DNA from: Sedimenticola hydrogenitrophicus
GTDB lineage: Bacteria > Pseudomonadota > Gammaproteobacteria > Chromatiales > Chromatiaceae
Length of the DNA stretch: 64,000 nt
Direction of reading: 5' to 3'
Assembly (NCBI RefSeq): GCF_029017505.1
Contig: NZ_JAQGEI010000009.1
Span: 62,001 to 126,000 of the forward strand
Shown here piece after piece: positions 22,813-63,467 of the stretch. A model generated the notes under the pieces. That model was not told the DNA's origin and did not search any database. It was given only the letters and a program-made list of their open reading frames with translations. Within the stretch, counting starts at the first letter, position 1; every line of letters begins with the position of its first letter. The translations under genes were made by a program, and so were the position numbers.

Positions 22813-22854
22813 AGGAGTGGTGCAAGGATGCACCGTTTACGGACCTAAAGATGG
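22813..22854 (+). repeat. 42-nt hairpin element, copy 1
   Basis: Runs from AGGAGTGGTGCAAGGATGCACC to GATGG, exactly 42 bases. It splits a copy of the 'cgaatgaacgc' repeat: CCGCG before it and AATGAACGCG after it rejoin into the uninterrupted sequence seen at 1228. GGTGCA and TGCACC form its stem. Confidence 0.8.
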
Positions 22855-22909
22855 AATGAACGCGAATGAGCGCGAATAATGGTAATTTCGCAATAACCTT
22901 GCACAACCG

Positions 22910-22946
22910 GTAGGGTGCTGGTGAGCTTGCGAACCGCACCGTTGCC
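22910..22946. repeat. Half copy of the gtaggatgc(c/t)ggtgagc repeat
   Basis: GTAGGGTGCTGGTGAGCTTGCG and following matches one arm of the palindromic element at 56062-56138. Only one arm is present here, upstream of the srkA 3' end. Confidence 0.6.
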
Positions 22947-23008
22947 GGAATCCCTGCCAGGCACACCGACGCATGTGGGCGAAATCCGGGACGCCGTTGC
23001 ATCGCGCC

Positions 23009-23998
23009 TCAATAAAGCGGCAGCGGCGGCTCATCCAGCAGCCGCAGCTGCTGCTCCAGTTCGCCCAGGTGGGCCTGCCAGTACTGGTGGGTATGGAACC
23101 AGGGGAAGGCCTGGGGAAAGGCGGGGTCTTGCCAGCGCCGCGCCAGCCAGGCGGCATAATGGATCATGCGCAGGGTGCGCAATGGTTCGATCAGTGCCAC
23201 CTCGCGGCTGTCCAGTTGGCGGAAGGTCTCGTAGCCCTCGTGGATATAGCTCAGCTGCAGCGCCATCTCCTGACGGTCACCGGACAACAGCATCCACAGA
23301 TCCTGAATTGCCGGACCGCTGCGGCAGTCATCCATGTCCACGAAGTGCGGCCCCTGCTCGGTCCAGAGGATATTGCCCGGATGGCAGTCGCCATGCAGCC
23401 GGATCACGCGTCCCGGCCGGGCCGCGGAAAAGGCTTCCTCGATGCCCTGTTGCAGCGCCTCGGTCACCCGTCGATAGCCCGATTCAAGTTCCAGCGGGAT
23501 GCAGCCTTCGGCCAGCAGATAGTCCGCGCAGGCGCGGCCCATCTGGTCCGGGTCGATGGTGGGGCGGTGCTGGAACGGCTGGGCGGAACCGATCAGGTGG
23601 ATGCGGGCGATAAAGCGGCCGATCCACGCCAGGTTGTCGGGATTCTCCAACTCCGGCCAGCGCCCGCCGCGGCGCGGGAACAGGGCAAAGCGGTAGCCCT
23701 GGAAATGGTGCAGGGTAACGCCCTGGGGATCCTCCAGGGGCGCCACCACCGGTATCTCGTCGGCGGCCAGGGCCAGGGTGAAACGGTGCTCCTCCAGGAT
23801 GCTCGCATCGCTCCAGCGCTGCGGCCGGTAGAACTTGGCCACCAGCGGCGGTCCCTCGTCCATGCCGATCTGGTAGACCCGGTTTTCGTAACTGTTCAGG
23901 GCCAGCATGCCGCCGGAGGGCCGGTAGCCGACCGATTCCAGCGCGCAGAGAATGGTTTCGGGTGTCAGGTCGGCGTAGGGTGTGCCCGGATCAGACAT
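23009..23998 (-). CDS. srkA: Stress response kinase A (YihE/RdoA type)
   Basis: A 329-residue aminoglycoside-phosphotransferase-fold Ser/Thr kinase. It shows LNSYENRVYQIG for nucleotide binding, the VAKFYRPQRWS lysine segment, the catalytic loop HGDCHPGNILW and the metal-binding FVDMDDCRSGP. In enterobacteria SrkA counters stress-induced death by the MazEF pathway and affects Cpx signalling, usually beside dsbA; here it sits next to a glutaredoxin, also a thiol-redox gene, whose reading frame overlaps its first 8 bases. Function is assigned by family; substrates are unknown. Confidence 0.9.
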   Translation of the reverse strand: MSDPGTPYADLTPETILCALESVGYRPSGGMLALNSYENRVYQIGMDEGPPLVAKFYRPQRWSDASILEEHRFTLALAADEIPVVAPLEDPQGVTLHHFQGYRFALFPRRGGRWPELENPDNLAWIGRFIARIHLIGSAQPFQHRPTIDPDQMGRACADYLLAEGCIPLELESGYRRVTEALQQGIEEAFSAARPGRVIRLHGDCHPGNILWTEQGPHFVDMDDCRSGPAIQDLWMLLSGDRQEMALQLSYIHEGYETFRQLDSREVALIEPLRTLRMIHYAAWLARRWQDPAFPQAFPWFHTHQYWQAHLGELEQQLRLLDEPPLPLY

Positions 23999-24248
23999 CG
24001 AATCCGGCCTGGCGCAGCGCCCGCTGCAGCTGGCGCGGTTCGAACCCCTGGATCTGCTGCTCCCCGACCGTGATCAGGGGTACGCCGCGTGCGCCGGTGC
24101 GCATGAAATCGAGCTGGGCGCGGCGGTTGCGCTCCACGTCCTGTTCGGTGAAGGGGATATGGTGCTCCTGCAGATACGCCTTGGCGCGCCGGCAGTGGGC
24201 GCAGTTGCGGCTGCTGTAGAGGGTGATGCGTGGCGGTCGCTTTTTCAT
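23991..24248 (-). CDS. Glutaredoxin-like protein
   Basis: An 85-residue thioredoxin-fold protein with the redox pair C16-A-H-C19 in YSSRNCAHCRRAKAYL, a GVPLITV cis-proline loop and the GFEPRQL C-terminal helix start, as in glutaredoxin/NrdH-like proteins with a YruB-type sequence. It would reduce disulfides with glutathione or a thioredoxin reductase; which cannot be told. Translationally coupled to srkA by an 8-base overlap. ATG 24248 is the only sensible start. Confidence 0.85.
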   Translation of the reverse strand: MKKRPPRITLYSSRNCAHCRRAKAYLQEHHIPFTEQDVERNRRAQLDFMRTGARGVPLITVGEQQIQGFEPRQLQRALRQAGFDV

Positions 24249-24299
24249 GGCTCTATCCCAGTTAGTTGTTGGTGTTGATCAAGCTTGGTGAATCACTCC

Positions 24300-24347
24300 G
24301 TAGGAGCGCCTCTGGCGCGAAGCTTTTCGCGGCGAAGCCACTCCTAC
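24300..24347. repeat. gtaggagcgcctctggcgcgaa...ctcctac palindromic repeat
   Basis: GTAGGAGCGCCTCTGGCGCG to CCACTCCTAC. A related, longer copy lies at 59499-59596 and a fragment at 57653-57678. Together with the sequence up to 24389 it forms a larger duplicated block that also occurs at 59499-59637. Confidence 0.7.
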
Positions 24348-24389
24348 AAAAGCACTGTCCATCATGCAACACCTAATTGGTATATAGCC

Positions 24390-24531
24390 GAATGGCACTT
24401 ACTTAAGCCAAGAACCACCGTCATCCCGGCGCAGGCCGGGATCCAGAACCCGCATCCGCGGTGAATTCATGGATTCCGGCCTGCGCCGGAATGACGAAAA
24501 TCCTACAATTCGCCTTAAGTAAGTGCCATTC
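24390..24531. mobile_element. MITE-like element, copy A1 (142 bp)
   Basis: Ends are inverted repeats GAATGGCACTTACTTAAG and CTTAAGTAAGTGCCATTC. It is flanked by a perfect 10-base direct duplication GTATATAGCC (24380-24389 and 24532-24541). Inside are two further inverted GC-rich arms (CCGGCGCAGGCCGG type). No reading frame for a transposase is present, so movement would need an enzyme in trans. Confidence 0.85.
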
Positions 24532-24557
24532 GTATATAGCCTTTTTCATCGGTTGTA

Positions 24558-25448
24558 TCACCCGGTCAGGATGCGCTCCGCCTCGCGGTACTTATCGGCG
24601 GTCTTGCTGATCACCTCATCCGGCAGCACCGGCCCCGGCGGGGTCTTGTCCCAGTCCAGGATCTCCAGGTAGTCGCGCACGAACTGCTTGTCGAAGCTCG
24701 GCGGGCTGATGCCCGGCTGGTACTGGTCCGCCGGCCAGAAGCGGGAGGAGTCCGGAGTCAGCACCTCATCGATCAGGTAGAGCTGGCCCTGTTCGTCCAG
24801 GCCGAACTCGAACTTGGTGTCGGCGATGATAATACCCTTCTGCAGGGCATAGTCGGCGCACTCGCTGTAGATGCGCAGGCTCGACTCGCGGACCTGGTTG
24901 GCCAGCGTCTCGCCGATCAGGTCCACCATCTGGTCGAAGCTGATGTTCTCGTCGTGATCCCCCATCTCCGCTTTGGACGAGGGGGTGAAGATCGGCTCCG
25001 GCAGCTTGTCGGCCTGGCGCAGCCCCTCGGGCAGCTTGATCCCGCACACCTCGCCGGTCTTCTGATAATCCTTCCAGCCGGAACCGATGATATAGCCGCG
25101 CACGATCGCCTCCACCGGCAGCGGCTTCAGCTTGCGCACCACGATGGCCCGATCCCCCAGCATCGCCCGCTGTGCCGGGTCCGGCACCACCTGCTCCAGC
25201 GGCAGCTCGGAGAGGTGATTGGGCAGGATGGAGCGGGTGCGCCCGAACCAGAAGTTGGCCACCCGGGTCAGCACCTCGCCCTTGCCAGGGATCGGCTGCG
25301 GCAGCACCACGTCGAAGGCCGACAGGCGGTCACTGGCGACGATCAGCATGTGCCCCTCGTCGATATCGAAAATATCCCGGACCTTGCCGCGGTTCAGCAG
25401 CTTCAGGTGGGGCAGGTCGGTTTCAAACAGCGCGTCAGCTTGGCTCAT
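24558..25448 (-). CDS. purC: Phosphoribosylaminoimidazole-succinocarboxamide synthase (SAICAR synthase)
   Basis: A 296-residue enzyme of de novo purine synthesis joining aspartate to CAIR with ATP. Visible signatures are [19 protein letters not shown] at residues 18-36, the [21 protein letters not shown] box, [17 protein letters not shown], and the [14 protein letters not shown] segment. The length is that of the longer, yeast-like bacterial form rather than the 237-residue E. coli form. Isolated from other pur genes. Start ATG 25448 is convincing. Confidence 0.96.
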
Positions 25449-25596
25449 AATAGTGAAACTTGGTGACTGGAAAGGGGGAGCGATTATACCCTGATCCGGG
25501 GTTTGTTAATAAGCCCTTAACACATTTTGATTACAAAAAGCCGGGGTGTTGTGGGAAACTGCTCCGATGTCTGTCGGAAGCCGGGATGGGATTCCT

Positions 25597-26040
25597 ATGT
25601 CTTTGTCTTTGCCGGAAAATGAATTCATGTCAGCCTTTCGGGGGAGTTTCACCTCCACCCTGCGCTGGCCCCAGCTGGATGCGCTCTGGGATCTGTTACG
25701 CGCTGATCCCTGTGATGACTGGTTCATCTACGCCATCGGCGAACCGCCGCCGGCAGAGCCCGCCAGCGCCCGGGATCTGAAGCGTTTTCTCGACGAAATG
25801 GCGCTGTTCCTGCGTCGCGAACATGACGAGGATTACTGCGGTATCGTCTATGCCGACAACCTGCAGCAGCCGGCATTTGTGAAAATCTACGATCCGCACA
25901 ACCTGGGGGTCTCCTGCGGTTACAGCGACAACCCGCCCCTGCCTGGCTGGATAGTGAGCAAGCTGCCGCCCTGCGATCTCCCCTCGACCCGCGTCCTGCC
26001 GAACAACCGCCGGCGCTGGTGGCGTCAGCTGTTTGGCTAG
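25597..26040 (+). CDS. Conserved-looking hypothetical protein
   Basis: About 147 residues, soluble, rich in Trp and Pro (RWPQLDALWDLLRADPCDDW; ending RRRWWRQLFG). No catalytic motif is recognised. The middle contains EHDEDYCGIVYADN and IYDPHNLGVSCGYS, a beta-rich stretch with two cysteines. Several in-frame ATGs exist (25567, 25597, 25627, and a TTG at 25546); 25597 has the most plausible ribosome site (GGGATGGGA). It is divergent from purC and lies upstream of another small gene in the same direction. Confidence 0.6.
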   Translation: MSLSLPENEFMSAFRGSFTSTLRWPQLDALWDLLRADPCDDWFIYAIGEPPPAEPASARDLKRFLDEMALFLRREHDEDYCGIVYADNLQQPAFVKIYDPHNLGVSCGYSDNPPLPGWIVSKLPPCDLPSTRVLPNNRRRWWRQLFG

Positions 26041-26127
26041 CAAGGATGGATATGAAGTTAGTGGGGATCATGCTAGACTAAAAACCCAGTAAATAACTCG
26101 GAAATTAAACTAGCGGGAGGTTGTTTC

Positions 26128-26526
26128 ATGAATGCGGTAGCCATGAATCAAGCGATAGACAAAACACAAGAGACCATGGAGGTCCTGCGGGTCTGGCGGC
26201 TGGGGGTCGAACAGGTCTGTTTTATCCTGGGGCTGCCGGAGACCCGGCTGCGCAAGCTGAACCGGTTGGGCCAGAGCGAGGCGTTACCGGACGATCCGGA
26301 TGTCCAGCGCCGCGCCGACTACGTGCGCCGTATCGCCCAGGCGCTGCACACCAGCTATCCCACCAATCCCACCATGGGCGGCCGCTGGCTGCGCCAGAAG
26401 CACCGTCGGCTCGGCCAGGCGCCGCTGGCACTGATCCTTGAGCAGGGCGAGGGCGGACTGGTTCAGGTGCTGGCGGAGCTGGATTGCACCTTCTGCTGGG
26501 AGTTGAACAGCACCCGGCCCGACTGA
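26128..26526 (+). CDS. MbcA/ParS/Xre antitoxin-like (DUF2384-related) protein
   Basis: A 132-residue helical protein. The N-terminal half has a helix-turn-helix-like stretch (VCFILGLPETRLRKLNRLGQ), and the C-terminal half (NPTMGGRWLRQKHRRLGQ followed by APLALILEQGEGGLVQVLAEL) resembles the toxin-binding domain of MbcA/ParS/Xre antitoxins, where a conserved PN-LGG-PL-L pattern is usual. No RES-domain toxin lies nearby, so it may be an orphan or a housekeeping relative. GGGAGG seven bases before ATG 26128 supports the start. The family call is moderate. Confidence 0.6.
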   Translation: MNAVAMNQAIDKTQETMEVLRVWRLGVEQVCFILGLPETRLRKLNRLGQSEALPDDPDVQRRADYVRRIAQALHTSYPTNPTMGGRWLRQKHRRLGQAPLALILEQGEGGLVQVLAELDCTFCWELNSTRPD

Positions 26527-26611
26527 GTCGACCGTTGTCGGCAGGCGCGGCGCACCCGCTGGTGCCAGTAGACTTCAATTTAATATTACCGGGTAAAGCT
26601 GATTCAGTTTC

Positions 26612-26723
26612 GTAGGGTGGATAAGCCGGTAGGCGCATCCACCATTGCGGCGGTGAGGAGTGGTACATGAATGTACCGTTTACGGACCTGAGGATGGCAT
26701 ACGCTGTCGCTTATCCACCCTAC
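26612..26723. repeat. gtagggtggataagc palindromic repeat interrupted by a 42-nt element
   Basis: Starts GTAGGGTGGATAAGCCGGTA and ends GCTTATCCACCCTAC. Removing 26656-26697 leaves a compact palindrome like those at 58079 and 61926. In-frame translations of such composites give short meaningless peptides. Confidence 0.85.
26656..26697 (+). repeat. 42-nt hairpin element, copy 2
   Basis: AGGAGTGGTACATGAATGTACC to GAGGATGG, 42 bases. The stem is GGTACA/TGTACC, in which both partners of one pair have changed relative to the GGTGCA/TGCACC of copy 1. It interrupts the palindrome at 26612-26723 between GGTG and CATACG. Confidence 0.85.
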
Positions 26724-26840
26724 AAAAAGAGTTGTAGGATGAGTGGAGGAGGCACGGCGTAACCGATCAGAACGGCAGGCACGTCTCGTACATATTGCCC
26801 CGTGCGCCCGTAACCCGCTGTTCGGCGGTCGAGGAATCGG

Positions 26841-26912
26841 TGGGTTACGCGGCGCTCGGGGAGTTGTTGTAGCCAGGAAGTGTCGTGGCTGTGCGCCGCT
26901 AACCCACCCTAC
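26841..26912. repeat. Inverted repeat tgggttacgcggcgc / gcgccgctaaccca
   Basis: Arms at 26841-26855 and 26893-26906 form a hairpin with CCTAC at its outer end; a related fragment (CGTAACCCGC) lies just before, at 26808. It overlaps the 3' end of the next gene by a few bases and may act as its transcript end. Confidence 0.6.
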
Positions 26913-27289
26913 AGCGAGCCGGTTTGACCCTGAAATGCCTGGCACAGGCCGCGCTGCCAATCCTCCACAAACTGTTCGATCGAGGCGACAAAGTCGGCGT
27001 CGTGATCCGCGCGGTTGATGGTGCAGTGGATGGTCACGCTTTGCTGTTCCGCGGTGACGGTCCAGGCCAGGGCATTGGGGCAGCCCGGCAGGGTGAGCCG
27101 GACACCGTTGCGGATCGGCTCGCGCTGCACCCTGAACTCCCCCCAGACGCAGTAGATGCGTCCGTGCTCACCGTGATCCTCCAGCAGCGCGTCGATCGAG
27201 GCGCAGAGCTGCGGCAACCGCTCCAGGGTGATCAGTTGTTGCAGTTCCGTTTCATTGATGACGGCAGCAAACTGGCGAAAAAACTCCAT
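26909..27289 (-). CDS. Hypothetical protein
   Basis: A 126-residue soluble protein beginning MEFFRQFAAVINETELQQLI, with a helical N-half and a beta-rich C-half (FRVQREPIRNGVRLTLPGCP, WTVTAEQQSVTIHCTI). No family recognised. It starts six bases after the stop of the MBL hydrolase gene, so the two form an operon and may act together. The C-terminal codons enter a palindromic repeat, so the original 3' end may have been altered by it. Confidence 0.65.
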   Translation of the reverse strand: MEFFRQFAAVINETELQQLITLERLPQLCASIDALLEDHGEHGRIYCVWGEFRVQREPIRNGVRLTLPGCPNALAWTVTAEQQSVTIHCTINRADHDADFVASIEQFVEDWQRGLCQAFQGQTGSL

Positions 27290-27295
27290 GTCCGG

Positions 27296-28246
27296 TCAGT
27301 CCTGCTTCTCGCGCCGCTTCAGCCACACCTCGAGCCCCTGGGCACAGAGTTCCATGTCCATGCCGAGCACTTCGTCGATCTCCGCGTCGCTCAGCCGTGA
27401 GCCGTGCTCCCGGAGGCGCCTACGGTAATAGCGGGTCAGCTCGTCGCGGATCTGCAATTCACGCTGCGCGCCCCCGGCGCTGAGGGCGATGGTGACGTAG
27501 TCGTCGATCTCCTGATGCAGCGCCCGGGCGCGTAGCGCGGGCTGGTCGATGCGGCAGAAGTGGGTCAGGTAGAGCTGGGTCGGGTTCAGGCGGAGCAACT
27601 GTTCCAGGGAGTCGTGCCATGCCTCCGGATCGAAGTCGATGGGGGTGGAGGGGAGTATCATGAAGGGTCCCTGCTCGGTGTCCAGCTCCCGGTAGGATAT
27701 GCCGAAGGTATCGCCGGCGAACAGCCCCCGACTCTGCTCGTCCCAGACGCAGAAGTGGTGGCGGGCATGGCCTTCGGTGTGGATGCAACGCAGCTTGCGT
27801 CCGGCCAGGGAGACCTCGAAGCCATCCTCCGCCTCGATGGTGCGCGCCTCCGGGACCGGCAGGATGGTGCCGTAGTGCTCCCGGAACACAGCCTCGCCAT
27901 AGACGGCGATGGTGCTGGCGATAATCTTCTCCGGATGGTTCATGTGCCGGGCGCCGCGCGGGTGGATGACCATCCGCGCCTCCGGCAGCAGCGCCATCAG
28001 TTGTCCGGTGCCGCCGGCATGGTCCAGGTGGACGTGGGTGGGGATGACGTACTTCACCTGTTCCGGCGCGAGACCGCGCAGCGCCAGCAGCTCCATCACC
28101 GCCGGCGCCACGTGGGAGGTGCCGGTATCGATCAGCGCCGCTTCGCCCTCCTGCTGGATCAGATAACAGCCATCCAGATTGGGGCGGTAATAGAAGGTAT
28201 CGATACAGCAGATGCCCTGTCCCAGGTCTTGGTAAGAGAGTTTCAC
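27296..28246 (-). CDS. MBL-fold metallo-hydrolase
   Basis: About 316 residues of the metallo-beta-lactamase fold. The metal-binding motif THVHLDHAGG, a downstream HTEGHARHH and the FAGDTFG aspartate strand give a complete dinuclear site, followed by LYLTHFCRID. The C-terminal 90 residues are helical. The open frame begins with a TTG at 28312, but GTG 28246 begins at VKLSYQDLGQGICCIDTF, the usual first strand of the fold, and is preferred with some doubt. Substrate unknown; such proteins cover glyoxalase II-like and lactonase-like hydrolases. Operon partner is the small hypothetical gene following it. Confidence 0.85.
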   Translation of the reverse strand: MKLSYQDLGQGICCIDTFYYRPNLDGCYLIQQEGEAALIDTGTSHVAPAVMELLALRGLAPEQVKYVIPTHVHLDHAGGTGQLMALLPEARMVIHPRGARHMNHPEKIIASTIAVYGEAVFREHYGTILPVPEARTIEAEDGFEVSLAGRKLRCIHTEGHARHHFCVWDEQSRGLFAGDTFGISYRELDTEQGPFMILPSTPIDFDPEAWHDSLEQLLRLNPTQLYLTHFCRIDQPALRARALHQEIDDYVTIALSAGGAQRELQIRDELTRYYRRRLREHGSRLSDAEIDEVLGMDMELCAQGLEVWLKRREKQD

Positions 28247-28312
28247 GATGTCAGCTCGCGGGTTGCCTTGCTTCAGGCCGGGGACTTTGCCATGGATGAG
28301 CGGGGCGGGCAA

Positions 28313-28609
28313 GGCACCCTATCGCCTTGGGTCGGCTATAGTAAATAAACGGCCACAGTAACTATTCACCCGGGGCGCCCGTTAGAGACCCTCCATTGCA
28401 CCACGGAGACTCGGAGGTGGAACCGGGCGACGTAACGGAGCGGATCATTGGCATTGTGATCAGCGGCCGGAGTCAGGTCGGTCGAAATGGATCAATCAAT
28501 TACCGGATATATGCGGCCTGACTCCAACCTTTCTCAATATGATTTTTCTGGGCTCTCTGTGGTGCGGATAAGGTCAAGTAGTTACCAATCAAATAAAAGG
28601 AGATCCGGC
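28313..28609. other. Divergent gap between the MBL hydrolase and dodecin genes
   Basis: Must hold promoters in both directions. A perfect 9-base inverted repeat GGAGTCAGG (28469-28477) / CCTGACTCC (28517-28525) with a 39-base spacer is the only structure noticed. No short gene with a ribosome site was found. Confidence 0.4.
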
Positions 28610-28819
28610 ATGGGTTCGCATATCTACAAGAAATTGGAACTGGTGGGTACGTCCAGCGAGAGTTCCGACAAGGCGGTGGAGAACGCCCTGGCGCATGCGT
28701 CCAACACCATCCGTAACATGGACTGGTTCGAGGTGGTGGAGACGCGCGGCCATGTGCAGGACGGCAAGGTCGCCCATTGGCAGGTGGTGATCAAGGTGGG
28801 GTTCCGGCTGGAGGATTGA
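28610..28819 (+). CDS. Dodecin (flavin-storage protein)
   Basis: A 69-residue protein starting MGSHIYKKLELVGTSSES, with the dodecin helix (KAVENALAHASNTIRNMDWF, the Trp that stacks on flavin) and the strands VVETRGHVQDGKVAHWQVV. Dodecins assemble into hollow dodecamers that bind riboflavin derivatives and buffer them in the cytoplasm. The open frame extends 123 bases upstream, but AAAGGAGA before ATG 28610 fixes the start. It is convergent with argF, only five bases apart. Confidence 0.92.
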   Translation: MGSHIYKKLELVGTSSESSDKAVENALAHASNTIRNMDWFEVVETRGHVQDGKVAHWQVVIKVGFRLED

Positions 28820-28824
28820 CCGGG

Positions 28825-29748: not shown

Positions 29749-29777
29749 AGTCGTCTACCTTGCGCGGGTATCACGCA

Positions 29778-30962
<1,185 letters not shown>

Positions 30963-31135: not shown

Positions 31136-31497
31136 GGAGTCGGCCGGATGGTCGCTGCCTTGCAAAAGGTGGAGGAAAGTCCGGGCTCCGACGGGCAGGG
31201 TGCCAGGTAACGCCTGGGAGGCGCGAGCCTACGGAAAGTGCCACAGAAAATATACCGCCACCGACCCACGGGCCGGTTGGTAAGGGTGAAATGGTGCGGT
31301 AAGAGCGCACCGCGCTGCTGGTAACAGCAGTGGCAGGGTAAACCCCACCCGGAGCAAGACCAAATAGGGGGGCGGGCAGCTTCGGTTGCCACGTGCGGCC
31401 CGCACGGTCCCCGGGTAGGTCGCTTGAGGTGCACGGCGACGTGCATCCCAGATGAATGGCCATCCATGACAGAACCCGGCTTACAGGCCGGCTCCCA
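31136..31497 (+). ncRNA. rnpB: RNase P RNA, bacterial class A
   Basis: Catalytic RNA that trims the 5' ends of tRNA precursors. The near-universal blocks are present in order: GGAGGAAAGTCCGGGCTCC, CAGGGTGCCAGGTAACGCCT, GGTAAGGGTGAAATGGTGCG with GTAAGAGCGCACCGCG, CCACCCGGAGCAAGACCAAA, GATGAATGGCCATCCATGAC and ACAGAACCCGGCTTAC. The two ends (gggagtcggcc and ggccggctccc) pair as helix P1, fixing the limits within a few bases. All open frames through it on either strand are spurious. Confidence 0.97.
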
Positions 31498-31791
31498 ACC
31501 CAATTCTTGCGCGAGCCCTAAGTCAAGGGCAGCCCGGTTGCCCCTTGTGACAGTTTCTCTCCCCCAGGTCAGTGCCGGTGGGATAGCCGGTTCCCGCGGA
31601 GCCGCATCAGGCTCCATTGAGGGAGTGTGGTGGGTTTCCGGGTTAAACTCCGCAACTCTTCACAATCTACTTTAACTCAGCATTTCATCGCCCTGTTTTC
31701 TATTGTCTTGTGTCTTGGCTTTTCCTCCAAGTGCCGTCCCTAAGCCCCTGTCTTTTAAGGAACTTTCACCTGTTCTGGTGGAGTGATCTCC
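31498..31791. other. Gap between rnpB and the mra promoter
   Basis: A stem around 31524-31548 (CAAGGGCA with TGCCCCTTG, one bulge) may end the RNase P RNA transcript, although no T-run follows. The remainder is pyrimidine-rich with no gene. Confidence 0.4.
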
Positions 31792-32342: not shown

Positions 32343-32344
32343 CG

Positions 32345-55996: not shown

Positions 55997-56061
55997 GGTA
56001 TCCCATGAAAGGCTTTCCCCTTTCCCGTCATATCGGCCGGCGACATACCACATTGCCTGGG

Positions 56062-56138: not shown

Positions 56139-56154
56139 ATCTACAACAAGCTTG

Positions 56155-56289: not shown

Positions 56290-56320
56290 GCGACTGCGAG
56301 CAGGATGAGGATGTAGGGTG

Positions 56321-56362
56321 AGGAGTGGTACAGGGATGTACCGTTTACGGACCTGAGGATAG
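56321..56362 (+). repeat. 42-nt hairpin element, copy 3
   Basis: AGGAGTGGTACAGGGATGTACC to GAGGATAG, 42 bases. Stem GGTACA/TGTACC. Flanks are GTAGGGTG and CATAGGCGACAGCATATCCA, which rejoin into a gtagggtg...atccacc style repeat. Confidence 0.8.
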
Positions 56363-56419
56363 CATAGGCGACAGCATATCCACCGTAGTCAACAAACAAA
56401 TATTGGCGGATTTGACTCA

Positions 56420-57628: not shown

Positions 57629-57652
57629 GGAGTCTGGCACATGCTGGTATTG

Positions 57653-57713
57653 TAGGAGCGGCTTTGCCGCGAAAAGCAAATGTAGGGTGGATATGCCGGT
57701 AGGCGCATCCACC
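57653..57713. repeat. Fragments of gtaggagcg and gtagggtggatatgcc repeats
   Basis: GTAGGAGCGGCTTTGCCGCG (57653-57678) is a reduced copy of the element at 24300, followed at once by one arm of the gtagggtggataagc family (57682-57713). Both abut the MITE-like copy at 57734. Confidence 0.65.
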
Positions 57714-57733
57714 ATGAAATTAGATTTCGACCC

Positions 57734-57978
57734 GAATGGCACTTACCTAAGCCAAGAGCCACCGTCATCCCGGCGCAGGCCGGGATCCAGACTGCTTAAT
57801 GGTGGCGGTATTCCTGGATTATTCGCTTCGCTCACCCTTCGGGCCGACTTTCAGTCGTTCAACGCGCTTCGCGCTTTTGTCCGGCCTGCGCCGGAGAAGT
57901 GGTGCAGGGATGCATCGGTTACGGACCTAAGGATGGAATGACGAAAATCCTGCAATTCGCCTTAAGTAAGTGCCATTC
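57734..57978. mobile_element. MITE-like element, copy A2 (245 bp, 203 without the 42-nt insert)
   Basis: Ends GAATGGCACTTACCTAAG and CTTAAGTAAGTGCCATTC. Flanks GATTTCGACCC (57723-57733) and GATTCCGACCC (57979-57989) are an 11-base duplication with one mismatch. The interior is longer than that of A1 and contains a 42-nt element at 57895-57936. Confidence 0.85.
57895..57936 (+). repeat. 42-nt hairpin element, copy 4 (inside MITE A2)
   Basis: AGAAGTGGTGCAGGGATGCATC to GGATGG. The surrounding GCGCCGG / AATGACGAAA joins to the uninterrupted sequence found in A1 at about 24484-24499. The stem has one mispair in this copy (TGCATC). Confidence 0.85.
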
Positions 57979-58078
57979 GATTCCGACCCCTTGTCCCTAT
58001 CTCTTTGCGTACTTGGCGTTCTTCGCGGTTGAATCGAGTTCGTTGGGGTTCGTTCTCCGCCCCAACGGCCCTGGTTTC

Positions 58079-58148
58079 GTAGGGTGGATAAGCGACAGCG
58101 CATCCACCGCGGCAATGGTGGATGCGCCTACCGGCTTATCCACCCTAC
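58079..58148. repeat. gtagggtggataagc palindromic repeat (70 bp)
   Basis: Perfect outer arms GTAGGGTGGATAAGC / GCTTATCCACCCTAC. Differs from the 70-bp copy at 61926-61995 at only two positions, suggesting recent copying or gene conversion. Confidence 0.9.
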
Positions 58149-58301
58149 GAAACTGGCGCAAACAAATAATCAATGGCTTGGGGTTAAGTTCTCCGTGAGC
58201 AGGTGATGATTTTGCCGTTATTTGCGTGTATTCGCCTTCATTCGCGGGTTTATAAAGGGTGCCCAACCATAACTGAACCTGGTGGGTAATCAGGACAATT
58301 T

Positions 58302-59252
58302 ATGCTGCCGATCCATGTCGCTGTTGCCGTAATCCAGGATGCCGCCGGCCGGGTGCTCCTGACCCGTCGCCCCGGGGCTGCCCACCAGGGTGGTCTCTGG
58401 GAGTTTCCCGGTGGCAAGGTGGAGCGGGGAGAGGATCTGGCCGGGGCGCTGTGCCGGGAGATACGGGAAGAGCTGGGTATTGAAGTCAGTGCTCACCAAC
58501 CACTGATCAATGTCACCCATCTCTATCCGGATAAAGCGGTCCGACTGGATGTGCACCGGGTCCTCCGCTACTTCGGTCACCCGCTCGGCCTGGAGGGACA
58601 ACCGTTGCAGTGGGTTTTACCCGAACATCTGCCCCGCTACGCCATGCCGGCGGCGGACCGTCCTATCTGCACCGCCTTGCGGCTGCCTCAACAGTATCTG
58701 ATCACCGGTCCCGATCCGGCCGTTCCCGGACAATTTCTCCGGCGTCTTGAAGCCTCCCTGGCTAGCGGTCTGCGGCTGGTGCAGCTGCGGGCGCCCGGTC
58801 TCGCGCGCGCCGATTATGCGGCGTTGGCCACCGAGGCGCTGGCGCTGTGTCGGCAACACGGCGCGCAACTGCTGTTGAACTGCCCGGTGGAACTGGCGCT
58901 GGCACTGGATGCGGATGGCATCCATCTCAACAGCCAGCAACTGGCGGGGTTGAGTGAGCGTCCACTTACCGATGACCGATGGGTTGCCGCCTCCTGTCAC
59001 AACCGGGAGGAGATCCGCCAGGCGATGGCCATCGATGCGGACTTCTGTGTACTCTCGCCGGTGTTGCCGACCACTTCCCACCCCACCGTAGAGCCGCTCG
59101 GATGGGAACGATTCTCTCAGATCGTGGCAGCGACCAATATCCCGGTATATGCCCTGGGCGGTATGGATGAAGACCAAATCGAAGTCGCTTTGGAACACGG
59201 TGGCCAAGGCATCGCTGCTATCAGTGCCCTCTGGGCCGGTGATATTCGATAA
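58302..59252 (+). CDS. Nudix hydrolase fused to a ThiE-like domain
   Basis: A 316-residue two-domain protein. Residues 1-130 are a MutT-type Nudix domain with a perfect Nudix box at residues 38-60 (G38, E44, R52-E53, E56-E57, G59), which should clean oxidised dGTP. Residues about 145-316 resemble thiamine-phosphate synthase (QLRAPGLARADYAALA, LLLNCPVELALALDADGIHL), but the ThiE aspartate in the usual LNDRVDLA is replaced by Cys-Pro and GVHLGQ.D is changed to GIHLNSQQ, so that activity is doubtful. The fusion is common in gammaproteobacteria beside secA or argJ, replacing E. coli mutT. Confidence 0.92.
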   Translation: MLPIHVAVAVIQDAAGRVLLTRRPGAAHQGGLWEFPGGKVERGEDLAGALCREIREELGIEVSAHQPLINVTHLYPDKAVRLDVHRVLRYFGHPLGLEGQPLQWVLPEHLPRYAMPAADRPICTALRLPQQYLITGPDPAVPGQFLRRLEASLASGLRLVQLRAPGLARADYAALATEALALCRQHGAQLLLNCPVELALALDADGIHLNSQQLAGLSERPLTDDRWVAASCHNREEIRQAMAIDADFCVLSPVLPTTSHPTVEPLGWERFSQIVAATNIPVYALGGMDEDQIEVALEHGGQGIAAISALWAGDIR

Positions 59253-59313
59253 CCATAGGGTGGGCCGTGCCCGCTGACGGCGCCCATGGGGCGCCCTATG
59301 GGCGGTTTTCGGT

Positions 59314-59473
59314 GTAGGATGCCGGTGAGCTTGCGAACCGCATCATTCCATCCTCAGGTCCGTAAACGGTGCATTGCATCCTCGGCTCCGTTATCGGTAC
59401 ATCCCTGTACCACTCCTCCTGCACCACTCCTTGCGGTGGGCTTGATGCGGTTCGTGCCTCACCGGCATCCTAC
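59314..59473. repeat. gtaggatgccggtgagc palindromic repeat holding two nested 42-nt elements
   Basis: Outer arms match 56062-56138. The centre contains 59348-59431, a 42-nt element on the minus strand which is itself split by another 42-nt element at 59376-59417. Confidence 0.85.
59348..59431 (-). repeat. 42-nt hairpin elements, copies 5 and 6 (nested)
   Basis: Outer copy: 59348-59375 plus 59418-59431 (28 + 14 = 42 bases). Inner copy: 59376-59417, 42 bases, with stem GGTACA/TGTACC when read on the minus strand. The join restores an intact outer hairpin. One unit inserted into another of its own kind. Confidence 0.85.
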
Positions 59474-59498
59474 TCTGAGCGTCGTGGTTTGTAGCCCG

Positions 59499-59637
59499 TA
59501 GGAGCGCCTCTGGCGCGAAGGTTTTCGCGGCGAAGCGACGCACAATGAAGTGCTAATGCCGCGGGCGGCAGGATGCCGGGAGCGGCCACTCCTACAAAAG
59601 CACCGTCCTTCATGCAACACCTAACTGGTATATAGCC
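59499..59637. repeat. Longer copy of the 24300-24389 repeat block
   Basis: From GTAGGAGCGCCTCTGGCGCG through CCACTCCTACAAAAGCACCG to CAACACCTAACTGGTATATA, matching 24300-24389 with an extra segment of about 50 bases in its middle. It leads straight into MITE-like copy A3. Confidence 0.75.
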
Positions 59638-59840
59638 GAATGGCACTTACTTAAAGCGAATCGCAGGATTTTCGTCATTCCGGCGCAGGCCGGACAAAAG
59701 CGCGAAGCGCGTTGAACGACTGAAAGTCGGCCCGAAGGGTGAGCGAAGCGAATAATCCAGGAATACCGCCACCATTAAGCAGTCTGGATCCCGGCCTGCG
59801 CCGGGATGACGGTAGTTCTTGGCTTAAGTAAGTGCCATTC
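59638..59840. mobile_element. MITE-like element, copy A3 (203 bp), inverted relative to A1
   Basis: Ends GAATGGCACTTACTTAAA and CTTAAGTAAGTGCCATTC with flanking GTATATAGCC (59628-59637 and 59841-59850), the same duplication and neighbourhood as A1. The interior reads in the opposite direction: the arm with GATTTTCGTCATTCC is on the left here and on the right in A1. Confidence 0.85.
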
Positions 59841-59882
59841 GTATATAGCCTTTTTCATAGATGTGCATAGGTTTTCCAGGCC

Positions 59883-60080
59883 CTAACTGTGATCATCCTC
59901 GGGAGGCAGGAAGGGGTTCGCCGGACTGTTGTCCGGAATGCGGTGCTTCTCTTCCAGCCAGTCGCCCAGGTCGATCAGGCGGCAGCGCTCGCTGCAAAAC
60001 GGTCTGGATTGCGGATTGCTGTGCCAGTCAAATGCCTTCTTACAGATCGGACAGCGTACGATTTTCGGTTCATTTCCCAT
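59883..60080 (-). CDS. yacG: DNA gyrase inhibitor YacG
   Basis: A 65-residue zinc-finger protein. The four ligands are C10 and C13 (VRCPICKK) and C29 and C33 (PFCSERCRLIDLGDWL), the YacG signature; the tail is acidic. In E. coli it binds GyrB and blocks DNA binding. The open frame extends upstream into a repeat, but ATG 60080 at MGNEPKIVRC is the family start. Downstream of zapD and coaE on the same strand, the usual trio, here spread by a repeat-filled 250-base gap. Confidence 0.93.
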   Translation of the reverse strand: MGNEPKIVRCPICKKAFDWHSNPQSRPFCSERCRLIDLGDWLEEKHRIPDNSPANPFLPPEDDHS

Positions 60081-60117
60081 GGTTCTTAAAGCTCGAGTTT
60101 CGGAGTTCGCAGTACTT

Positions 60118-60187
60118 GTAGGGTGGATAAGCTTGCGCATCCACCATGAATCGGATGGCGGTGGATGCGCAAGCTTATCCACCCTAC
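60118..60187. repeat. gtagggtggataagc palindromic repeat between yacG and zapD
   Basis: 70 bases from GTAGGGTGGATAAGCTTGCG to GCAAGCTTATCCACCCTAC. The inner arm ATCCACCATGAATCGGAT is shared with 52893. It is bracketed by inverted copies of the gaactccgaaacttgag repeat (60092-60109, 60215-60233) and a third at 60313-60331. Confidence 0.85.
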
Positions 60188-60330
60188 GAATTCAGAAATT
60201 CGGGCTTTGTGAAATGAACTCCGAAACTTGAGTTTGAACATAATCGTTCTACCATGCGTGAGGCTAACTTGTTTTTGCAATCAACAGGTTAAGCGATATT
60301 TATTGCTGAATTTGAACTCCGAAACTTGAG

Positions 60331-61110
60331 TCAAAGAATACAGCAGTTGAGGAAGAAGGTAATGTCCTGCCTGGTCTGGGTGGCTCGCTCCTCTGTCGAT
60401 TGCTCCATGAAGCGGACAGTGAAGCGGTGCTTTCCGCCGCTGATCTCGGCGTAAAGCTGACTCTCCCGGGGCAGCCCGACCCGGATCAGCTGGGCCGGTG
60501 ACTGGGCATCCAGGCTCTGCTGGAAAAATCCGCCGGCGGCGATTTCGCGGGTGGGCGTGGTGCTGCCGCGGACGAGTGAGAGCAGCAGGCTCACGGCGGT
60601 AAAGACCGGGTCCAGGGTCTGCCGCCAGGCAACGATCTCCTGGTGGCGCTGTTCAAAGGGTTGTTGTAGCCAGAAATGGTACAGGGGCAGATCAAAGGCG
60701 CAGCTCCCGCCCGGGATGCTGCTGCGCTGGGTGATGCTTTTGAGAAACTCGTTCTCTCTCAGCTCCTGGCCCAGTTGCCCGCCGTGCTGCTGAAGCCGGC
60801 TGGAAACCTGGCTCAACTCCCGCAGGATCTGATCCAGGCGCTCCTCGTTGACATCCGGTATGGCGCGGATGCTGGCCAGCTTATCCTGGTGCCGCTTCAG
60901 CTCCTTGATCAGGTCGGTCTTGATGTCGGCACGGGAAAAGATGGCCACCATGTCCATCAGACTGGTGATGGCGGCCCGGCTGTCCCAGGTACTGGGCTGG
61001 GGGATGTGATAATCGACTTGGCGAAACAGGTGCTCCAGACGCAGAAAGGTTCTGGTCTTCTCATTGAGCGGATGCTCATAGATGATTTTGTCTGAAACAG
61101 CTGGTTGCAT
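60331..61110 (-). CDS. zapD: Cell division protein ZapD
   Basis: A 259-residue protein (from M at 61110) that cross-links FtsZ filaments by binding the FtsZ C-terminal peptide. Opening MQPAVSDKIIYEHPLNEKTR and following FLRLEHLFRQVDYH are typical, as are the mid helix NEFLKSITQRSSIPGGSCAFD and DLPLYHFWLQQ. A longer frame starts with TTG at 61161 but has no ribosome site; the ATG also has a poor site, so the start is approximate. The 3' end reaches 60331, inside the gaactccgaa repeat, so the extreme C-terminus may be modified by it. Confidence 0.92.
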   Translation of the reverse strand: MQPAVSDKIIYEHPLNEKTRTFLRLEHLFRQVDYHIPQPSTWDSRAAITSLMDMVAIFSRADIKTDLIKELKRHQDKLASIRAIPDVNEERLDQILRELSQVSSRLQQHGGQLGQELRENEFLKSITQRSSIPGGSCAFDLPLYHFWLQQPFEQRHQEIVAWRQTLDPVFTAVSLLLSLVRGSTTPTREIAAGGFFQQSLDAQSPAQLIRVGLPRESQLYAEISGGKHRFTVRFMEQSTEERATQTRQDITFFLNCCIL

Positions 61111-61199
61111 GGGGCCATGTCTGTTGATTGCGACACCGGGACCGGTGCCTGGATTCGACAATCTTGTATATTATACCGATTCTGACAACTATAACCTCG

Positions 61200-61793
61200 T
61201 CAGGTGGCAAGGTTAAGGTATTTCTGGTGGAGTTGTTCAACTATCGGCCGCAGGTCATTGAGGCTGCCTGAATTATCGATAATGTCATCGGCCCGGGCCA
61301 AGCGGCTTGTCCGCTCGATCTGGGCGGCAATGATGGATTTTGTCTGCGCTTCGCTGGTGTGGTCGCGCCGAGTGACCCGGCTGATCTGCAGCTCGGGCGG
61401 GCAGTCCACCACCAGTATGCGGTCGACGCGCTTGTCCTGCCCGGTCTCGAACAGCAGCGGTATGGAGAAGATGGCGTAGGGGGTGTCGAAGTCATCCAGC
61501 CGGCGGCGCATCTCCGCACGGATCCTGGGATGCAGGATTCCCTCCAGCCGGGTTTTGGCATCGGGATGGGTGAAAATGTGCTCCCTGAGCCAGAGGCGGT
61601 CGAGGGAACCGTCGGCGCTCAACACCTCGGGACCGAACTGTTCGACAATCTCCCGTAGCGCCGGTTGGCCGGGTTCGACGACCTCCCGGGCCACCACATC
61701 GGCGTCGATGACGGGTACGCCCAACGCGGCAAAGCAGTCGGTTACCGCACTCTTGCCGCAACCGATGCCACCCGTGAGTCCGACTATAAACAC
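61200..61793 (-). CDS. coaE: Dephospho-CoA kinase
   Basis: A 197-residue P-loop kinase completing coenzyme A synthesis. The P-loop GLTGGIGCGKSAVTD is at residues 5-19, with the FAALGVPVIDADVVAREVV segment and the lid IFSIPLLFET typical. Full length. First gene of the coaE-zapD-yacG group. In many gammaproteobacteria pilBCD precede coaE; here the space upstream holds repeats and toxin-antitoxin material. Confidence 0.95.
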   Translation of the reverse strand: MFIVGLTGGIGCGKSAVTDCFAALGVPVIDADVVAREVVEPGQPALREIVEQFGPEVLSADGSLDRLWLREHIFTHPDAKTRLEGILHPRIRAEMRRRLDDFDTPYAIFSIPLLFETGQDKRVDRILVVDCPPELQISRVTRRDHTSEAQTKSIIAAQIERTSRLARADDIIDNSGSLNDLRPIVEQLHQKYLNLAT

Positions 61794-61925
61794 GATGCGT
61801 TCCTCCGGCTATCGGTAAAAAACTTCTGGATGATTATTTTTCTCATGGAGAACTTAACCCTAATCCATTGATTCCTGGTTTCACGCTGCCTCCCGCTGTC
61901 ATTGCTAAGCAGAGCCGAAGTGAAT

Positions 61926-61995
61926 GTAGGGTGGATAAGCGACAGCGCATCCACCGTAGCAATGGTGGATGCGCCTACCGGCTTATCCACCCTAC
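61926..61995. repeat. gtagggtggataagc palindromic repeat (70 bp)
   Basis: Near-identical to 58079-58148 (two differences). Lies in the 471-base gap between coaE and the RelB-like antitoxin gene. Confidence 0.9.
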
Positions 61996-62048
61996 GAAAC
62001 TTCTGGTACCCGGCGCCTTTCCGGTCCTGGATCAGTAAAGGATCATTA

Positions 62049-62127
62049 CTCTCACCAAGACGCCAAGCACGCCAAGGAAAACCTATACCTTCCTTTAATC
62101 TTTGCGCTCTTGGCGTCTTGGCGAGAG
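62049..62127. repeat. ctctcaccaagacgccaag palindromic repeat
   Basis: CTCTCACCAAGACGCCAAGC and its inverse CTTGGCGTCTTGGCGAGAG bracket about 79 bases. This style of repeat is common between genes in proteobacteria. The rest of the gap, to 62225, shows no gene. Confidence 0.7.
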
Positions 62128-62225
62128 TCCATCTGTCATCCGGAGGTGCTCGATCCACGCATAGGTCAAACCTGACGAGTCCCCCCGGGATTTACCCATT
62201 GGCGTCAGGTATTTCCTGCTGCTAC

Positions 62226-62250
62226 GCTATACATGTAAAACATGTATAGC
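62226..62250. promoter_or_regulatory. Operator palindrome upstream of the RelB-like antitoxin
   Basis: GCTATACATG (62226-62235) and CATGTATAGC (62241-62250) are perfect inverted arms spaced by TAAAA, 14 bases before the antitoxin ATG. It is a likely autoregulatory site of the ribbon-helix-helix protein; the overlapping TATACAT resembles a -10 box. Confidence 0.75.
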
Positions 62251-62264
62251 AATGGGGGGTTGAC

Positions 62265-62477
62265 ATGCTCGCAATACGCTTGCCGGAAGAAATCGAGGCC
62301 CGTCTTACGGCGCTGGCAGCCAAGACCGGGCGGACCAAGACATTTTATGCCAAAGAGGCAATTCTAGAACATCTGGATGATCTGGAAGATAAGTATCTTG
62401 CCATCCATCGACTGGAGAACCCGGGAAAACGCTGGACACTAGACGAGTTGGAGCAAGATCTTGACATGGATCGTTGA
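62265..62477 (+). CDS. RelB/CopG-type ribbon-helix-helix antitoxin (toxin broken)
   Basis: A 70-residue protein, MLAIRLPEEIEARLTALAAK, with the ribbon-helix-helix fold at the N-terminus (TGRTKTFYAKEAILEHLDDL), followed by the acidic toxin-binding tail LDELEQDLDMDR. Preceded by a good GGGGGGT ribosome site and a palindromic operator. The normal partner, a RelE/ParE-type toxin starting within its last codons, survives only as fragments (62461 and 62940), so this is an orphan. May still repress its own promoter. Confidence 0.88.
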   Translation: MLAIRLPEEIEARLTALAAKTGRTKTFYAKEAILEHLDDLEDKYLAIHRLENPGKRWTLDELEQDLDMDR

Positions 62478-62615
62478 ATTTGACGCCGCGGATAAAACTG
62501 CGCTTTCCACGGCAGATTGGAATCGCTGCGCAAGTTCAGGACTGATTTTCCGATAGAAGGCTTTTTCGTGACGTATGTCCTCGCGAGCTGACGCTAGAAA
62601 CTTGACGCGCTTCAA
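62439..62615 (-). pseudogene. Truncated ParE/RelE-superfamily toxin
   Basis: TTG 62615 overlaps the stop of the antitoxin gene before it. The first 48 or so codons (LKRVKFLASAREDIRHEKAF, YRKISPELAQRFQSAVESAV) are the N-terminal helices of a ParE-type toxin, but the frame then runs antisense into the RelB-like gene and stops at 62439, after 58 codons; the family length is about 95. The catalytic or gyrase-binding C-terminal half is missing, so it is probably inactive. Confidence 0.75.
62461..62556 (+). pseudogene. N-terminal remnant of a RelE-type toxin
   Basis: Frame TTG 62461, overlapping the RelB-like stop, begins LTWIVEFDAAD, the usual first strand of RelE toxins paired with such antitoxins. 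Similarity ends there (about 62493); beyond that the DNA is the antisense of the truncated ParE gene, and the frame closes at 62556. The C-terminal end of what is probably the same toxin lies at 62940-63014. Confidence 0.65.
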
Positions 62616-62851
62616 TGATCGTCTTCCCGAAGTTCAGCAAAAACATCCTCCGCTGGGATAGCTTGTTCCTCCCCGCGGAGATATGCCTCGTAACGGCGGT
62701 TAGACTCGGCTACCCACGCTGCTTCTACCTTCTTCGGGTCGGACACGGGACGTGATTCAATACTTTCCAACAGGTGGATCACTAAGCGCGTCCGCTCCTC
62801 CAGTGGCAAAGCAAGCGCCTCAGATTCGATAGCTTTCGACAGATTACTCAT
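62612..62851 (-). CDS. Addiction-module antitoxin of the PF09720 type
   Basis: A 79-residue protein, MSNLSKAIESEALALPLEER, followed by TRLVIHLLESIESRP and WVAESNRRYEAYLRGE, and ending in a short acidic tail with AEDVFAELR. This is the pattern of the 'putative addiction module component' family that precedes ParE/RelE toxins. ATG 62851 lies seven bases after GGAGACC; GTG 62863 is an alternative. Its toxin gene overlaps the stop but is truncated, so it is an orphan antitoxin like its neighbour. Confidence 0.88.
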   Translation of the reverse strand: MSNLSKAIESEALALPLEERTRLVIHLLESIESRPVSDPKKVEAAWVAESNRRYEAYLRGEEQAIPAEDVFAELREDDH

Positions 62852-62939
62852 ACCGGTCTCCACTCAATGGACCCCAACCACATTGTATTCTGAACCCTCG
62901 ACGATGCAAAGGTGCGGTGGATTTGTCGAAGCACATAAC

Positions 62940-63014
62940 ATTGAAAACATTGAAGATGACAAACTCATCGTGCTTGTGCTGCGTGTGGGGCATCGTAAAG
63001 CTGTCTACAAGTAG
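62940..63014 (+). pseudogene. C-terminal remnant of a RelE-type toxin
   Basis: The frame reads IENIEDDKLIVLVLRVGHRK then AVYK and stop (TAG 63012-63014). IEDDKLIVLVLRVGHR-x-VY is the well-known last strand and tail of RelE toxins. There is no start codon or upstream half here; the first strand of a matching toxin is at 62461. The distance (about 450 bases) and the interposed module indicate that the gene was split and its middle lost. Confidence 0.75.
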
Positions 63015-63069
63015 ACCATTTTCTCCCAGCTTCTCGTAGTTCGGGTTTGCAGCCGGCTACCCCAGCGCC

Positions 63070-63231
63070 GTAGCCTGGATGAAGCCGCCACCGCCGAAAC
63101 CGGAATGATCATGTGTGCCCGCGGCGGCGTAATCCGGGGTTTGGGTCAGACTTCGGGCAATGCTCCGGATTACGCCCGTCTGGGGTTGTGTGTCTGTCGG
63201 GCTTTTGTGGGGCGGGCTTCATCTGGGCTAC
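63070..63231. repeat. gtagcctggatgaagc ... gcttcatctgggctac palindromic repeat
   Basis: Outer arms GTAGCCTGGATGAAGCCGCC and GGGCTTCATCTGGGCTAC, with an inner pair around CGTAATCCGGGG and CTCCGGATTACGCCC. Further repeat family, filling the space after the RelE remnant. Confidence 0.75.
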
Positions 63232-63331
63232 AATAAGACCTCTCACCCGAATGGCACTTACTTAAGGGATATCTATAGGGGTCGGAGTCGAATGGCACTT
63301 ACTTAAGGCGAATTGCAGGATTTTCGTCATT

Positions 63332-63373
63332 CTATCCTTAGGTCCGTAACCGATGCATCCCTGCACCACTTCT
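63332..63373 (-). repeat. 42-nt hairpin element, copy 7 (inside MITE A4)
   Basis: Minus-strand copy; reverse complement begins AGAAGTGGTGCAGGGATGCATC as in copy 4. It occupies the same position and orientation within the MITE as copy 4, between CGTCATT and CCGGCGCAGG, so it predates the spread of that MITE subtype. Confidence 0.85.
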
Positions 63374-63425
63374 CCGGCGCAGGCCGGAATCCAGGAATAC
63401 CGCCACCATTAAGCACGTCTGGATA

Positions 63426-63467
63426 CCATCCTTAGGTCCGTAAACGGTGCATCCCTGCACCACTCCT
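63426..63467 (-). repeat. 42-nt hairpin element, copy 8 (inside MITE A4)
   Basis: Reverse complement begins AGGAGTGGTGCAGGGATGCACC and ends GGATGG. It lies in the other internal arm of the MITE, next to CCGGCCTGCG, a position not occupied in A1, A2 or A3. Therefore an independent insertion. Confidence 0.85.

Follow-up and report, generated by a model that had tools for sequence, protein, structure and literature searches.

How a hairpin of only 42 bases comes to stand many times over in one bacterial genome, once even inside another copy of itself, is the question raised by a 64,000-nt stretch of Sedimenticola hydrogenitrophicus DNA (contig NZ_JAQGEI010000009.1, positions 62,001 to 126,000; this whole stretch is called the window below). 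Bare coordinates are positions in the window, G000 is its own genome, and labels such as C2:20808 give contig and position. The first-pass annotation had listed eight copies of exactly 42 bases, and all of them (8/8) were recovered at those coordinates and at that length. We regard it as about an even call that the unit is a non-autonomous, very short mobile DNA element. The copies belong to subfamilies A, A' and B (defined below), and their hosts include repetitive extragenic palindromic sequences (REPs) of CGTC and GTAG type. These names follow PMC3733652 and were assigned by sequence reading; host-context classes were regular-expression bins. A slash marks the junction with the unit and a dot the base after it. 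The copies in the window were as follows.

22813-22854, plus strand: unit of type A in a GCCGCG/AATGAACGC repeat; empty host form at 1228.
26656-26697, plus strand: unit of type A' (GGTACA stem) in a GTAG-type REP; next base C, against G nearly always in empty REPs.
56321-56362, plus strand: unit of type A' in GTAGGGTG/GAT; the ortholog in the congener G001 is without the 42 bases and reads GGTG/GAC, against GGTG(unit)CAT here.
57895-57936, plus strand: unit of type A at GCCGG/AATGACG of a CGTC-type REP.
59348-59375, minus strand: the 3' part (28 bases) of an outer unit that the copy at 59376 interrupts.
59376-59417, minus strand: inner unit of type B (ends GGATGC), inserted into the outer unit at its hairpin loop.
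59418-59431, minus strand: 5' 14 bases, the remainder of the split outer copy.
63332-63373, minus strand: unit of type A at GCCGG/AATGACG.
63426-63467, minus strand: type A consensus (identical to 17 other copies examined) at CCGG/.ATCCAG of a CGTC-type REP; next base T.

The window copies start AGGAGTGGT or AGAAGTGGT and end GGATGG (four), GGATAG (two), AGATGG (one) or GGATGC (one). The self-nesting was confirmed: the copy at 59376-59417 splits that at 59348-59431 into 28 and 14 bases, and the outer copy is again 42 bases long once the inner one is excised. Removal of a unit had also been said to restore the uninterrupted host repeat. This held exactly at 22813 (CCGCGAATGAACG, as at 1228) and at 57895 (GCCGGAATGACG, with the empty form at 24485, near the 24390 given earlier). 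It failed by one base at 26656 and 56321, where the unit is followed by the C noted above, and at 63426, where the T that follows stands against G or A in empty REPs.

A covariance model was built from seven window copies and run on the complete genome; since scoring covered 150 of the 970 first-look candidates, genome counts are lower bounds. At least 158 matches were obtained in G000, and chance was excluded. Variable length, which would have marked the unit as a part of longer repeats, was confined among the matches listed to two of 41 bases (C7:6799 and C1:28293); the others were 42 wide. Segments around the listed matches (109 segments, 848,399 bases) were then examined, a unit being called at ≥33/42 matches to one of three consensus forms, a rule that misses decayed copies. 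They held 155 units, in subfamily A (GGTGCA stem, ...GGACCTAAGGATGG), A' (GGTACA stem, ...GGACCTGAGGATGG) and B (GGTACA stem, ...GGAGCCGAGGATGC). Identical copies were common, the A consensus alone occurring 18 times. Units lay outside gene calls in 150 of the 155 cases, and in 88/88 in the stretches of G001; the calls were our own simple codon-score calls, covering 81% of the DNA examined.

Near-identical units are patchy in Gammaproteobacteria. A second covariance model was used for family and class searches, in which only part of the candidates was scored and counts are again lower bounds. Matches were found in 57/210 family genomes at E≤1e-4 (35/210 at E≤1e-10) and in 28/369 genomes of the class sample at 1e-4 (10/369, the own genome included, at 1e-10); many of the weaker matches were short or partial hairpins. 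A pattern scan (at least 77 stretches) found carriers in Sedimenticola, Candidatus Thiodiazotropha and several metagenome-assembled genomes, with more than 100 copies in named Sedimenticola strains. At the loci from other genera the unit was again 42 bases, in hosts that included CGTC-like REPs (Thiodiazotropha, G163 and G362) and an AAAACG/AAAAATG repeat. There was no match to the unit in viral contigs (exact pattern), plasmids or phages.

Positions 7-22 of the unit form a hairpin of six base pairs capped by an NGGA-type loop. The sequence around ACGGA is unpaired and conserved, and at the 3' end co-variation links bases 32 and 42. The co-variation seen in the window stem extends beyond it. 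Among 143 distinct units, pair 10-19 was A-T in 76, G-C in 64 and G-T in 3, and pair 32-42 was C-G in 102, G-C in 31, G-T in 1 and other in 9; these were the two strongest co-varying pairs. Pairing was tested on 40 representatives (43 picked, minus three aberrant). Of their cells 93.1% paired, against a shuffled mean of 85.0%, and 28 cells were changed on both sides, against 9.7 in shuffles; 0/500 shuffles were as high in either measure. Two-sided changes fell on pairs 10-19 (in 16), 32-42 (9), 9-20 (2) and 8-21 (1), that is, on four pairs, a number that 35/500 shuffles also reach, and further pair types were not above shuffles (195/500). The 32-33/41-42 helix has only two pairs, and kinship among the subfamilies may inflate its signal. 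Conserved structure, which the first-pass annotation had read from a few stem variants, is thus supported against shuffles.

Orthologous sites were sought in G001, whose syntenic DNA is about 95% identical. Both flanks were mapped for 56 distinct G000 copies (46 and 11 from two scans, one shared), and an 'empty' call needed a score of 0.6 in the first scan and 0.5 in the second. It had been reasoned that a lack of empty sites in relatives would speak for parts of longer ancestral repeats; sites empty of the unit only were found for 3/56 copies. At C2:20808 the exact 42 bases are absent in G001 with nothing else changed, complete over 44 bases, and the G001 site for window 56321 is empty and likewise complete over 44 bases. 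At C8:33054 the empty site is partial and matches over only 30/44 bases. Both genomes were filled at 17/56 copies, among them C23:17372, which is without 28 bases in G001. Reverse mapping from G001 to G000 gave 26 entries (20 and 6), or 24 loci, since two were doubled via L185 and C35; 17 were filled, six were neither and one was empty in G000. At this last locus (G001 C1:206485), GGTG(unit)CATGCGC stands against an empty GGTG/GATGCGC, a change of G to C. No target-site duplication was found at the empty sites.

The A' copies at GGTG/.ATGCGC gave further evidence on movement. The 21 copies in G000 occupy 19 different left/right contexts, and in G001 there were 14 contexts for 14 copies. The main right-arm types were the same as in 71 empty REPs, 7/19 of the contexts were also found empty, and the outer flanks of these copies had a mean identity of 27% (maximum 68%). 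One spreading composite does not easily yield 19 contexts; shuffling of REP arms by recombination may.

Hosts of the G000 units were mostly hairpin-forming repeats. These were CGTC-type REPs (CCGG/.ATCC and CCGG/.ATGACG), GTAG-type REPs (GGTG/.ATGCGC and GTAGGGTG/.AT) and GCCGCG/AATGAACGC repeats, together with two hairpin families whose loops are entered and other copies of the unit; 21/155 units were outside all host bins. The base before the unit was G in 150/155, and the three bases after it were AAT (73), CAT (67), TAT (2), GAT (1) or other. When a subfamily B unit was removed, the flanks paired over four or more base pairs to enclose an NG/NA loop in 38/47 copies in G000 and in 19/30 in G001, against a background of 517 of 13,683 GGAT or GAAT sites. 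The suggestion of structure-directed mobility is therefore borne out for the targets of this one subfamily only. The sequences GGTGGATGCGC and GGCCATGGATGGCC are empty hairpin forms.

Inspection placed the entry point after unit base 14 in those nested copies whose outer left half is intact. The products of nesting are tandem 14-mers and 28-mers, and 28-base losses and 14-mer runs were present (the G001 ortholog of C23:17372; C28:64112). Head-to-tail arrays of exact 42-base period were found at C15:78907-79074 (four copies) and in G001, G006 and G458, and fit repeated insertion at one G/A site. Copies that arose by nesting or amplification do not count as independent events. At G000 C4:30311 and C7:36548 an inner B unit lies between inverted left halves of unit A, giving a long hairpin of 18 pairs, an arrangement suggestive of fold-back recombination among nested units.

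The base after the junction was compared between empty and filled sites in G000. It was G in 71/74 empty GGTG.ATGCGC and 84/86 empty GTAGGGTG.ATA sites, and in 9/9 empty GGCCATG.ATGGCC and 39/40 empty GTGCAGG.ATGCAC sites. At 154 filled sites the base after the unit was A in 81, C in 69, T in 3 and G in 1. CGTC-type empty sites were mixed (17 G and 18 A for CGCAGGCCGG.ATCCAG). In the distant genome G362, three filled sites of one REP array (L318) have A, against T in one empty REP of that array; filled GCCGG sites of other genomes have A in 13 and G in one. A host G that becomes A or C beside the filled unit is most simply explained by a moving piece of 43 bases that replaces one host base. 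The travelling piece is thus probably 43 bases long, ending in A or C, for a net gain of 42. The identity of the terminal base was linked to the unit variant. In the nested-loop target, the B variant GATAAC was followed by A in 8 and C in 0, against 3 A and 8 C for other B units (Fisher p=0.003, G000), and in G001 the counts were 6/0 against 2/5 (p=0.02). Identical B units were followed by A in 11 cases and by C in 13 (G000). A rule deriving this base from the host sequence was discarded; it fits H1 loops and fails nested ones.

The mobile-unit explanation thus draws on the exact length and the exact ends of at least 158 matches and of units in distant genomes, on unit-only empty sites and the 19 A' contexts, and on B units in loops, nested entry after base 14, two-sided pair changes and the variant-linked base. 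In the mechanism we propose, an enzyme acting in trans would recognise the folded strand of the unit and join a discrete hairpin copy, in either strand, into another extruded hairpin. A piece of 43 bases would enter and replace one host base. The nearest known type of enzyme would be a single-strand (HUH-like) recombinase, and copies would then also spread passively inside the REPs and MITE-like repeats (MITE, miniature inverted-repeat transposable element) that carry them. A stronger version is offered only tentatively, as possible and still doubtful: the 43-nt hairpin would be a complete transposing unit recognising hairpins by structure, B would enter the middle of an NGGA-type tetraloop and swap one loop base for its terminal A or C, and the trans enzyme would be shared widely in Gammaproteobacteria. 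We know of no described transposase that joins hairpin into hairpin in either strand with a one-base exchange and no duplication.

Candidate enzymes were sought in three families (Y1 transposase, RVT_1 and GIY-YIG), on 9 to 24 genomes. The first-pass annotation had proposed looking for a co-occurring REP-type transposase. Matches to the Y1 transposase were present in 12/12 genomes searched, with and without units, and did not track copy number. In G001 there were five PF01797 matches. That the unit is a REP of a RAYT system (REP-associated tyrosine transposase, TnpA_REP), moved by a resident RAYT, accordingly looks improbable to us. The ubiquity of Y1, the GTAG tags of the A' target REPs (assigned by sequence) and a degenerate Y1 fragment about 1.5-1.7 kb from a unit in G000 C54 (C54:10535, about 1.5 kb) and G001 C54 speak for it; the unit itself is without a GTAG or CGTC tag, and only two of the 25 Y1 loci scanned, a part of all matches, hold a unit, 1.7-2 kb from the match. 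GIY-YIG nucleases were considered because a small gene of this family (G362 C17:2059-2277, in L318) lies directly upstream of a CGTC-like REP array with three REPs filled. They were set aside, since matches (UvrC-like long ones included) occurred in 23/24 genomes with or without units, and the only genome of the 24 without a match, G081, carries units.

The annotation had also raised RNA-templated mobility and a co-occurring reverse transcriptase. Under the first, an RNA of 42-43 nt would either be inserted in RNA hairpins or serve as template for a reverse transcriptase where hairpins are nicked, and the terminal A or C would be added without a template. It found no positive evidence here and is in our view very improbable. 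Points in its favour are the conserved hairpin with compensatory pairs and the A found at one end in place of a T or G of the empty host. RVT_1 was present in G000, G001, G012 and G047 and absent from the carriers G003, G004 and G006, which have 14, 9 and 1 unit matches. Orientation relative to the upstream gene was inconsistent across subfamilies and genomes: for A, 40 same and 24 opposite in G000, which favours an RNA route, against 11 and 16 in G001; for A', 22 and 16 in G000 and 20 and 11 in G001; for B, 24 and 22 in G000 and 15 and 13 in G001. A in G000 and A' in both genomes thus lean to the same strand; transcript-directed insertion was rejected on the inconsistency. IS200/IS605-type movement predicts a replication-strand bias, and none was found on long G001 contigs, with 22/46 units on the G-rich strand by GC skew. 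With no consistent bias relative to genes or to replication, neither transcript-directed insertion nor lagging-strand targeting gains much support.

An autonomous parent sharing the ends of the unit was also looked for. Orphan right halves proved to be nested copies, slippage products or, in seven places, a longer repeat, and no coding element sharing the ends was seen in the DNA examined. About 28 bases of the longer repeat match the right half of the unit. This repeat often adjoins CACAGAGG-like sequence, and it may have a common origin with the unit. Its places were:

G000 C36:50198, C11:13674, C59:5516, C66:7419 and C2:59232; G001 C1:8839 and C78:2359: longer repeat sharing the right half.

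A 1.7-kb insert at the G001 ortholog of window 22813 (G001 C50, L273:7040-8860) was taken up as an autonomous relative and dropped, as it holds instead a gene that, by reading of its translation, resembles a chemotaxis transducer and lies between rearranged, partly inverted nested units. G001 also has dozens of copies, about 90-99% identical, of two other short, very high-copy repeats of about 165-210 bases (L111:9043-9250 and L110:1624-1790).

Several observations weigh against a mobile unit. The whole host repeat was absent or rearranged in G001 at 36/56 mapped copies, so that part of the copy number comes from larger repeats carrying the unit. Unit-only empty sites were few, at three G000 loci (one partial) and one G001 locus, and none was added by a further 341 kb of G001 and 36 kb of G003. 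Loop entry was seen in 1/64 A and 0/42 A' copies in G000. Many B loops are the unit's own loop and hosts are shared, so that the 38 are not independent and represent about five distinct loop hosts. Joined flanks folded only slightly more stably than random intergenic DNA did (medians of -19.8 and -18.2 kcal/mol, p=0.04), pair 12-17 fails in 12/40 representatives, and hosts with A at the junction show no change, A being present in 5/5 empty GCCGCG.ATGAACGC. The replication-strand result above counts here too. No enzyme was found, copy number being tracked by none of Y1 transposase, RVT_1 and GIY-YIG.

These points bear most directly on the view that the unit is a passenger of longer repeats, a rare old insertion copied by REPs, MITE-like elements and recombination as a composite that includes the adjoining A or C; we consider this rather unlikely. 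Whole composites are indeed absent at orthologous sites. At C2:75320 (L009) and C8:89078 (L012) a MITE-like element with ends AATGGCACT...AGTGCCATT and direct repeats of about 11 bases at its outer ends holds CGTC-type REPs and the unit, and a REP with the unit lies in an element at C45:33440 that has inverted ends and spans about 220 bases. All three elements are absent from G001, so units also travel as passengers. The class in which the whole repeat differs, and the slippage products of 14 and 28 bases, point the same way. Set against this are the unit-only empty orthologs, the 21 A' copies in 19 contexts, the nested copies, and the recurrence of the unit in CGTC-type REPs of distant genomes.

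A search of Rfam 15 gave two matches in the window, neither of them a unit, and no match at E≤1 in 63300-63520. They were an RNase P RNA (class A; 31136-31499, plus strand) and an S-adenosylhomocysteine (SAH) riboswitch (3774-3852, minus strand), both above the Rfam gathering score.

Among described repeats, the small dispersed repeats (SDRs) of Nostoc treated by Elhai et al. in 2008 come close. They are reportedly 21-27 bases long, dispersed, structured with compensatory changes and possibly mobile with no known enzyme, and are said to sit inside other repeats and inside themselves. The unit is like them in its nested copies, its copies in other repeats and its structure with compensatory changes; it is unlike them in its length of 42-43 bases, its sequence, its gammaproteobacterial hosts, the loop targeting of B and the replacement of one host base. 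SDRs are also mentioned in PMC3116915 and PMC2884548. The GC42 element of yeast mitochondria (PMC4478555) is an intergenic hairpin of 42 bases in many copies whose loops vary more than its stems and whose mechanism is unresolved. Length, hairpin form, high copy number, intergenic sites and the greater variation of loops than of stems are alike; genome and sequence differ.

Tagged REPs of GTAG and CGTC type are short high-copy hairpins, and the CGTC type also seems to be without a dedicated transposase (PMC3733652); here they are hosts, and the unit inserts within them bearing neither tag. A RAYT-mobilised REP has its tag at the hairpin foot and a cognate RAYT gene flanked by the repeats; the unit is without the tag, and in the 25 Y1 loci scanned no more than two units were seen, 1.7-2 kb from the match. 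ISPpu9/ISPpu10 and ISPa11 insert specifically into REPs (PMC1525189), and these insertion sequences carry a transposase gene, which 42 bases cannot. An element derived from IS200/IS605 would insert 3' of a fixed short target without target-site duplication; here no duplication was seen at the empty sites and G precedes 150/155 units, but one host base is replaced. In contrast to a MITE, the ends AGGAGTGG...GGATGG/C (GGATGG or GGATGC) are not inverted and there is no duplication at empty sites. A group II intron or other element dependent on reverse transcriptase would be expected to have that enzyme in its carriers, and three of them are without RVT_1.

No earlier description of the 42-base unit was recognised in the literature searched, largely at abstract level. 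The kind is already known from the very short mobile hairpins (SDRs and GC42); within the same partial literature the family is new, as are hairpin-loop targeting by one subfamily and one-base replacement. How DNA too small for coding or for two ordinary transposon ends becomes mobile has been open since the SDRs and GC clusters. With its subfamilies, its favoured targets, the nested and tandem products that it leaves and the one-base signature at its junctions, the unit makes the enzyme directly searchable, and the finding would bear on the lower size bound of transposable DNA in free-living bacteria.

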